From Methanocaldococcus sp. (GTDB lineage: Archaea; AGJL01; Methanococci; Methanococcales; Methanocaldococcaceae): 64,000 bases of DNA. Every line of letters begins with the position of its first letter. Position 1 is the stretch's first letter. Both the position numbers and the translations under genes were made by a program. Location: assembly GCF_024490875.1 (NCBI RefSeq), contig NZ_JACCLX010000016.1:1-64000 (forward strand), given 5' to 3'. A model generated the notes under the pieces. That model ran no database searches. It saw nothing but the letters and a program-made list of their open reading frames with translations, and was not told the DNA's origin. Positions 365 to 31,090 of this stretch are shown here, piece by piece.

Positions 365-636
365 GTTTAAAATCACATCCCAAAGGAGATGGAAATTAAA
401 TATATCTATTGCATTTATATCTATCTCCAATATAAGTTTAAAATCACATCCCAAAGGAGATGGAAATTCTTTTTTCTTAAATACCCGTATAATACCCTCA
501 TTACCCGTCTAAAATCAGGCCCCAAAGGGGAAAGGCAAAAAGAGGCATTGCTTCTTTTAAGAAGCAATGCATCCCGGGTATTCCAATAGGGCGGAGCCCT
601 ATAGGTATATAATCAGGCCCCAAAGAGGATGGAAAT
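365..636 (+). CRISPR. Short degenerate CRISPR array, copy 1
   Basis: Four repeat units are visible at 365-396, 436-467, 507-538 and 605-636. The core is AAAATCA, then a GGCCCCAAAGG-like palindrome, then GGATGGAAAT. The first two are identical; the third ends in GGAAAGGCAAA and the fourth lacks the GTTTAA start, so the array decays away from the leader. Spacers are about 39, 39 and 66 bp. The third 'spacer' is a double-hairpin element also present at the same place in the second array. No complete cas gene is near. Confidence 0.75.
541..606 (+). repeat. Double-hairpin element, copy a
   Basis: This is a composite of two short palindromes. The first is GCATTGCTTC...GAAGCAATGC (about 546-571). 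A linker ATCCCGGGTATTCC follows, then AATAGGG-CGGAG-CCCTAT (about 581-600) and a TATA end. The same order appears at 30753-30821 on this strand and, inverted, at 30195-30256 and 20512-20583. It occupies the whole third spacer of the CRISPR array. Confidence 0.7.
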
Positions 637-20257: not shown

Positions 20258-20583
20258 CCATAGAGGGGGTTTCACCCCCTCTATTGGTATACTTCCCCAT
20301 TAGTTTGTATTTTTATTTCCATAGGGCTCTGCCCTATTGTTATACGCCGCATAGAGGGAAACCCTCTATTGCTCCATAGGGGGCTCCGCCCCCTATTGGT
20401 ATACCCCCGAATATTTGCCTTTTTGTTTAATTTTGGGTATCCCGAACCATAGGGGCGTAACCCCTATTGGTATACCCCAAAATTTTTTGATGAACCTTTT
20501 AGAAAAAGGTTCATACCAATAGGACGAAGTCCTATGGTTCGGATACCCGGGATGCATTATCTAGCTTCGCTCGATAATGCCTC
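20258..20583. repeat. Cluster of small palindromic repeats
   Basis: This 385-bp gap between genes holds at least seven hairpins. Five share the form CCATAGGGG-loop-CCCCTATTGGTATA: 20258-20287, 20319-20339, 20350-20371, 20374-20398 and 20447-20470. A sixth in inverse orientation is at 20517-20537. Further palindromes lie at 20493-20512 (GAACCTTTT/AAAAGGTTC type) and 20553-20580 (GCATTAT...ATAATGC). Loops and arm lengths differ while pairing is kept, which suggests selection on structure or successive insertions. Local GC is well above the surroundings. No gene fits. Confidence 0.75.
20512..20583 (-). repeat. Double-hairpin element, copy d
   Basis: Read on the minus strand this is AGAGGCATTAT-hairpin-ATAATGC, then ATCCCGGGTATCC, then CCATAGGA-CTTCG-TCCTATTGGTAT. 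The order and linker equal those of the elements at 541-606 and 30753-30821, although the arms of the first hairpin have changed together (ATTATC and GATAAT type in place of ATTGCTTC and GAAGCAAT). Confidence 0.65.
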
Positions 20584-30194: not shown

Positions 30195-30256
30195 CCATAG
30201 GGTTTCGCTCTATTGATATACACCCTATGCATTGCTTTTTAAAAGAAGCATTGCCT
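30195..30256 (-). repeat. Double-hairpin element, copy c
   Basis: On the minus strand this reads AGAGGCAATGCTTC...AAGCAATGCAT, a linker GGGTGTATATC, then AATAGAGCGAAACCCTATGG. The order is as in the elements at 541-606 and 30753-30821, and the pairing of the second hairpin has partly decayed. It separates the NIL-ferredoxin gene from the second CRISPR leader. Confidence 0.65.
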
Positions 30257-30282
30257 CTTTTTTATTATTTATAATATATTCC

Positions 30283-30646
30283 TCCCTCGCTAAAAATTTT
30301 TATTTTTTGATTTAGAGGATTTTAATTTATTATTTTTTAATTTTAAGGAATTTTATCAAATTTCGAAGGGTCTTCTATTTTAATGAATTTTAATATTTAA
30401 TTTTATTAAATTATTGAGATTATTTCCTAATTTTTTTAGTTTATTTTTATCTCTAATTTTCCCCGATAGTTAGATTAATATTAAAAATTTTAAGGATTTT
30501 TAAAGTAATAACTAAGAATAGAAAAATTTATATATAAGTTCGGAGGTATATAAATAATAGGGGTAATTGACCCTTCGAATCATAACCCATATATAAAGGA
30601 GAATAATAAAGTAATTTTAGAAAATTATCTCTTCAAATTGTGCCCT
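30283..30646 (+). promoter_or_regulatory. CRISPR leader (long repeat), copy 2
   Basis: This aligns base for base, with scattered differences, to 1-364 and likewise begins TCCCTCGCTAAAAA (from 30283). The TATA-like box and the possible CGGAGG/CCTTCG hairpin are kept. Its left boundary is clear: similarity starts at about 30283, after the double-hairpin element and a T-rich run. Confidence 0.82.
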
Positions 30647-30848
30647 GTTTAAAATCACGCCCCAAAGGGGATGGAAATTCTCTTTTTGTCCTTTAAAACT
30701 ATATTTTGTTGTTATATTAGTTTAAAATCAAGCCCCAAAGGGGAAAGGCAAAAAGAGGCATTGCTTCTTAAAAGAAGCAATGCATCGGGGGTATCCCAAT
30801 AGGGCGAAGCCCTATGGGTATAAAATCAGGCCCCAAAGGGGATAAAAG
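30647..30848 (+). CRISPR. Short degenerate CRISPR array, copy 2
   Basis: Three repeats are visible at 30647-30678, 30720-30751 and 30818-30848. The first has the full GTTTAAAATCA, GCCCCAAAGGGG, ATGGAAAT form. The second ends GGAAAGGCAAA, as does the third repeat of the first array. The last lacks the GGAAAT end. The first spacer (41 bp) is unlike any in the first array. The second is the double-hairpin element. Confidence 0.75.
30753..30821 (+). repeat. Double-hairpin element, copy b
   Basis: AGAGGCATTGCTTC...GAAGCAATGCAT, then GGGGGTATCCC, AATAGGGCGAAGCCCTAT and GGGTATA. It is nearly the same as 541-606 and takes the same place, between a CRISPR repeat ending in GGCAAA and the last degenerate repeat. 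Confidence 0.7.
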
Positions 30849-31090
30849 TATTTAAATTCTTTATTTTTTTAATAATATAAAATATTTATAGATTTATATA
30901 TTCACATCTTTTTTAAGAGTAATACTGACCCTCGGGAAAATCTTGATCTGAATATTATAAAATATGAAAAATATAAAAAAAATATTACAATAATATGAAA
31001 AATTTCAAAATTATAATATTATCATAATAAAAATTTTCTATTTTTTATGATTTAATATTATCAAGTCTCGAGCATGAGTATTATAGAAGT
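30849..31090. repeat. Conserved right flank of CRISPR element, copy 2
   Basis: This is the counterpart of 637-870. It holds CTCGGG at 30931-30936 and TCTCGAG at 31066-31072 as the outer inverted pair, with AATATTAT-type repeats between. It ends just before the 3' end of the mcm gene at 31104. Confidence 0.7.

Follow-up and report, generated by a model that had tools for sequence, protein, structure and literature searches.

CRISPR Cassettes of the Window

The window, i.e., the whole 64,000-nucleotide stretch of Methanocaldococcus sp. DNA analyzed here, carries two CRISPR arrays on its plus strand. The first one begins with the contig itself, at window base 1: its leader (1–364) is followed by two normal repeats (...GGAGATGGAAATT; repeat family D3) with two normal spacers (365–506), by a last full repeat (507–540) whose 3' end is altered, GTCTAAAATCAGGCCCCAAAGGGG and AAAGGCAAAA replacing ATGGAAAT, and by a 65-bp double-hairpin element, hereafter EL (541–605), whose end adjoins the first base of a degenerate terminal repeat (605–637). 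A trailer conserved between the arrays (638–830) completes this cassette. In the second array, a leader recognized by homology (30283–30646) precedes one normal repeat with one normal spacer (30647–30719), a last full repeat with the same altered 3' end (AAAGGCAAAA; 30720–30753), EL (30754–30818, assigned by BLAST match, RNA fold and comparison of the repeat flanks), and a terminal repeat with conserved trailer (30818–31060) homologous to the end of array 1.

The leader (1–300 versus 30283–30582, 87% identity), the array end (507–638 versus 30720–30851, 89%) and the trailer (642–810 versus 30865–31033, 86%) are all duplicated, so that the entire leader-array-trailer block is present twice in the window at 82–89% identity. 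The two EL copies are thus paralogues and not separate captures; a separate capture by each array was ruled out, leader, EL and trailer having been duplicated together. The trailer motif is also a dispersed repeat in its own right, with 53 matches in the genome of the window, often paired about 320 bp apart (e.g., C26:55719–56254, C9:41146–41682 and C27:34333–34852).

Structure and Copies of EL

EL is the final unit of both arrays and, as proposed in the initial annotation, these last units are homologous double hairpins, 89% identical between 541–605 and 30754–30818. In both copies, stem 1 is formed by GCATTGCTTCTT/AAGAAGCAATGC and stem 2 by CCNATAGGGC/GCCCTATNGG; in array 1, sequence and fold place hairpin 1 at 545–570 and hairpin 2 at 583–605. 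Both copies fold much better than shuffled sequence, with RNA folding z values of -4.1 and -4.9. EL has no terminal inverted repeats, its ends (AGAGGCATTGC and CCCTATGG) being non-complementary and each hairpin being an internal palindrome, and no match to a known Rfam family was found at the arrays.

In the 1.47-Mb draft genome of the window, BLAST retrieved about 13 near-full-length copies, with E values down to 1e-28, which excludes a chance origin of the matches. Two occurrences outside the arrays had been put forward within the window. The one at 30197–30258, on the minus strand, is a genuine yet diverged copy (82–83% identity, E about 1e-12), located about 25 bp upstream of the array 2 leader and oriented away from it. 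The other one, at 20512–20583, is only partly the same element: it is a mosaic relative, situated within an intergenic cluster of related palindromes on the minus strand (20259–20583), which possesses hairpin 1 but has its second hairpin inverted compared with the arrays; a direct BLAST match to EL spans only 16 nt. The fixed order of the two palindromes is hence a property of the array copies that does not extend to some of the dispersed ones.

A Dispersed Palindrome with Long Target Duplications

The comparison set comprised 14 genomes of the genus (G000–G013, G000 being the genome of the window), 11 of which contain EL matches. Among 70 copies examined outside arrays, 25 lie between directly repeated stretches of host DNA (median 37 bp, most of 21–63 bp) that score higher than the 99th percentile obtained with mismatched flanks. 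Their geometry is asymmetric: the right copy of the target adjoins EL, whereas on the left a short filler, usually A/T-rich, separates the target from EL. The 45 remaining copies have no detectable duplication; some of them sit in clusters of several palindromes, and some are possibly ancient.

Occupied and empty sites at three loci confirm that EL inserts with target duplication. Between cas4 and cas1, EL duplicates 50–51 bp of the cas4 3' end (L030/L215 at G004:343792–343855, L222 in G013 and L214 in G011), two target copies surrounding it in G004, G011 and G013 versus a single one in G000–G002, G005–G007 and G010. At G004:1446333, a 50-bp target occurs twice in G004 only, and one read-through copy is present in eight other genomes. 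Similarly, a target of about 60 bp is doubled at G013:698865, with a single read-through copy in other species. As for the enzyme, the REP-type Y1 transposase (PF01797) is absent from G000 and from 12 of the 14 genomes, being present only in G007 and G013; mobilization of EL by a REP/RAYT system was therefore ruled out for G000.

The Same Geometry Inside Arrays

In the arrays, the repeat core runs to GGGG and is followed by the filler, by EL and by the terminal repeat from its base 1. The following repeat adjoins EL with its first base in all resolved copies of G000 and G005 and in most copies of G006, and the left flanking repeat is devoid of the normal 3' handle in all arrays resolved across these three genomes. 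The duplicated target corresponds to the initial ~24 nt of this CRISPR repeat at the array end, and the complete unit amounts to the 65 nt of EL plus 10–18 nt of filler. As this geometry is the one found outside arrays, the natural reading is that EL inserted into a terminal repeat, of which about 24 nt were duplicated. The fillers differ between genomes (AAAGGCAAAA in G000 versus AAAATAATATTAATTA and similar sequences in G005 and G006) and, because of this, one or a few array insertions are both possible; independent insertions in different species are conceivable from these sequences.

Such a unit is hardly reconcilable with an ordinary spacer of invader or chromosomal origin that was subsequently copied along with its array, an origin that we regard as highly improbable. 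Only the placement of EL between two CRISPR repeats speaks for it. By contrast, EL exceeds the spacer range, normal spacers (n = 250, extracted within limits of 25–55 nt) having a median length of 39 nt and a maximum of 53 nt. Furthermore, the preceding repeat is altered and carries a filler, and copies of this sequence outside arrays have target duplications of their own. No protospacer was found either in viral contigs, phages and plasmids, weak evidence when taken alone since viruses of Methanocaldococcus are probably scarce in these collections. Taken together, the length of the unit, the lack of a handle, the dispersed copies and the absent protospacer led us to discard this origin. The view of the initial annotation that EL is no captured sequence in the normal sense is thus upheld by its many non-array copies, by its recurrence at the same array-end position in four genomes and by its target-duplicating geometry, and the proposal that it was inherited with or inserted into the arrays agrees with both the cassette duplication and this geometry.

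Guide RNAs generally need a repeat-derived 5' handle. As the repeat preceding EL is devoid of the normal 3' handle and EL matches many chromosomal sites, a working guide RNA is unlikely to arise from this unit.

EL at Array Ends Across Genomes

In G000, 11 distinct arrays end in EL (L001, L002 = L013, L003–L010 and L012). In each of them, EL is preceded by a repeat whose 3' end is altered and followed by a degenerate terminal repeat and then by the trailer, of which only the start is conserved in L003. Five complete arrays of this genome are without EL (L172–L176); there, the terminal repeat passes directly into the same trailer (e.g., L172 and L173), an arrangement that represents the empty allele.

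Homologues of the leader are found in G000, G005, G006 and G010. EL ends seven of the nine arrays of G005 (one of them truncated), eight of the nine chromosomal arrays of G006 and at least one array of G010, a genome in which the array L206 has no EL and in which a homologue of the first flanking gene of the window also lies downstream of L206. These array-end counts concern genomes other than those with different repeat types (G001, G002, G004, G007 and G013). As G005 and G006, each with a single-contig chromosome, show the same structure, an artefact of the draft assembly was ruled out. A small separate replicon or contig of G006 (C2, 5142 bp; L200) has a leader with just one degenerate repeat.

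When arrays were matched by their upstream flank, the orthologous sites A and B proved to carry EL in G000, G005 and G006, and sites D and E to be mixed. Comparison of 250 distinct spacers, whose genome labels are incomplete, revealed none in common, while EL does recur at orthologous arrays. EL identity reaches 92% within a genome versus 85% between genomes, the orthologous pairs averaging 87%, which suggests, on a small sample of three such pairs, that copies are homogenized within genomes.

Some copies depart from the terminal position. One array of G006 (L227, G006:C1:1346824–1346890) has an internal EL besides the terminal one and one of G005 (L198, G005:C1:293409–293635) a tandem duplication of the EL unit, features suggestive of array fusion or unequal recombination. 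In G005, an orphan EL with one repeat and neither array nor leader upstream (L228, G005:C1:749907) is possibly the scar of an array deletion.

Might CRISPR repeats be the preferred target of EL, entered repeatedly through an integrase making long staggered cuts, possibly off-target Cas1–Cas2? The duplications outside arrays (median 37 bp) are close to the length of a CRISPR repeat, Cas1 is found in genomes carrying EL in arrays, EL adjoins repeat base 1 exactly and one G006 array contains an internal copy. However, the duplications range from about 21 to 63 bp, which does not fit a ruler-like integrase, the repeat is duplicated over ~24 nt only and not in full, array copies are nearly all distal and not leader-adjacent, and the shared flanks indicate one insertion per lineage followed by copying. 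Neither outside arrays (21–63 bp) nor inside them (~24 nt) do we find the fixed, repeat-sized duplication of a Cas1–Cas2 product, and we give this route little credence.

Growth and Apparent Collapse and Regrowth of Arrays

The initial annotation had also surmised that EL closes arrays to further use. This is contradicted by the arrays themselves: EL is leader-distal, and EL-bearing arrays hold up to ~35 leader-side spacers, the largest number being that of L194. A closing function was thus ruled out, EL arrays being either long or rebuilt. Three G000 arrays are instructive with respect to the latter. In L008 (G000:C27), every repeat bears the handle of the EL-flanking repeat, from which this array has apparently regrown; in L175 (G000:C12), every repeat bears the handle of the terminal repeat; L176 (G000:C37) consists of a leader and one repeat only. 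Together, they look like a natural series of collapsed or regrown arrays. Collapse and repopulation of arrays, a conserved trailer or anchor end and degenerate terminal repeats have been reviewed (PMC8047081).

Origin and Role of EL

The explanation that we favor, and consider probable, is that a dispersed palindrome long ago entered a terminal repeat and was then inherited and copied with the leader-array-trailer cassette, EL being a passenger and possibly an anchor. EL belongs to a family of short palindromes scattered across the genus; in a single ancestral insertion, one copy would have entered the last repeat at the leader-distal end of an array, duplicating approximately the first 24 nt of the repeat and yielding the succession of repeat core, short A/T-rich filler, EL and full terminal repeat. 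The cassette would then have been multiplied and homogenized within genomes, carrying EL along. Since new spacers enter at the leader, EL would stay leader-distal and form the most ancient fixed portion of the array, and its loss would occur only through recombination collapsing the array onto its terminal repeat. Most likely, EL is a tolerated passenger which at most stabilizes the array end. Against this explanation stand the absence of the Y1 transposase from G000, the lack of terminal inverted repeats in EL, the fillers that differ between genomes and the 45 non-array copies without detectable duplication; besides, the persistence of EL in most arrays could reflect selection.

Such persistence, at most array ends of four genomes despite spacer turnover, is indeed a first argument for the view that EL has become a domesticated module of array ends, serving as an anchor against collapse or as a hairpin insulator or terminator blocking antisense entry, with leader-side EL copies acting likewise on sense read-through. 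A second one comes from the minus strand, where hairpin 1 is directly followed by 5–6 T in all nine scored array copies of G000 and in all six leader-side copies, versus merely one of 42 dispersed copies. These counts are not independent, the G000 array copies being probably of one origin; moreover, the adjacent T-run is missing from the array copies of G005 and G006, leaders without EL display the leader-side T-run too, and five complete G000 arrays do without EL. With EL-less leaders sharing the T-run and G005 and G006 array copies lacking it, an insulator role is just a possibility, and domestication as a whole appears to us rather unlikely, albeit deserving consideration.

EL-type palindromes are also found no more than about 30 bp from where the leader starts, facing outward, at roughly one quarter of leaders (30197–30258 in the window; L049, L056, L072, L078, L083, L115, L138 and L210), and the array filler of G000, AAAGGCAAAA, resembles the leader-side junction AAGGCAAATTATAAAAA. 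A somewhat more doubtful proposal is that palindromes making long duplications were recruited on both sides of the multiplied CRISPR cassettes, where they would face inward and act as insulators or anchors; if true, mobile repeats would shape the start and end points of arrays.

Under the insertion and copying that we favor, EL accounts for a spurious "spacer" that turns up repeatedly and would be listed by array finders as shared immunity, and it provides a fixed marker to compare fast-changing arrays across species. It also documents the insertion of a dispersed palindrome with 21–63 bp target duplications, for which the responsible enzyme can now be searched. Finally, EL-bearing, collapsed and apparently regrown arrays within one genome constitute a useful test case for array turnover.

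Relation to Known Systems

Suyama, Lathe and Bork (2005, FEBS Lett 579:5281; cited in PMC2229807) reportedly described palindromic repetitive DNA elements in Methanocaldococcus jannaschii. By this description, these are short palindromes scattered, like EL, through a genome of this genus. G004 contains EL-type copies throughout. In the open-access literature, we found no account of copies residing in CRISPR arrays, nor of such long duplicated targets.

MITE-like elements such as YPAL of Yersinia, whose target duplications vary from 3 to 26 bp and which also has internal inverted repeats (PMC2229807), are like EL small, non-coding and palindromic, with target duplications of variable length. 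EL displays the target site duplications and the empty alleles expected of this class; its duplications are longer than those of YPAL (median 37 bp) and, unlike typical MITE-like elements, it has no terminal inverted repeats. REP/BIME sequences are also extragenic palindromes, often arranged in mosaic clusters, but the Y1 transposase (PF01797) associated with REP is absent from G000, the genome of the window. Regarding array ends, EL arrays share with the known trailer and anchor ends a stable distal part and altered terminal repeats (PMC8047081). In the EL arrays, a dispersed palindrome takes the place of an ancestral spacer as the anchor unit.
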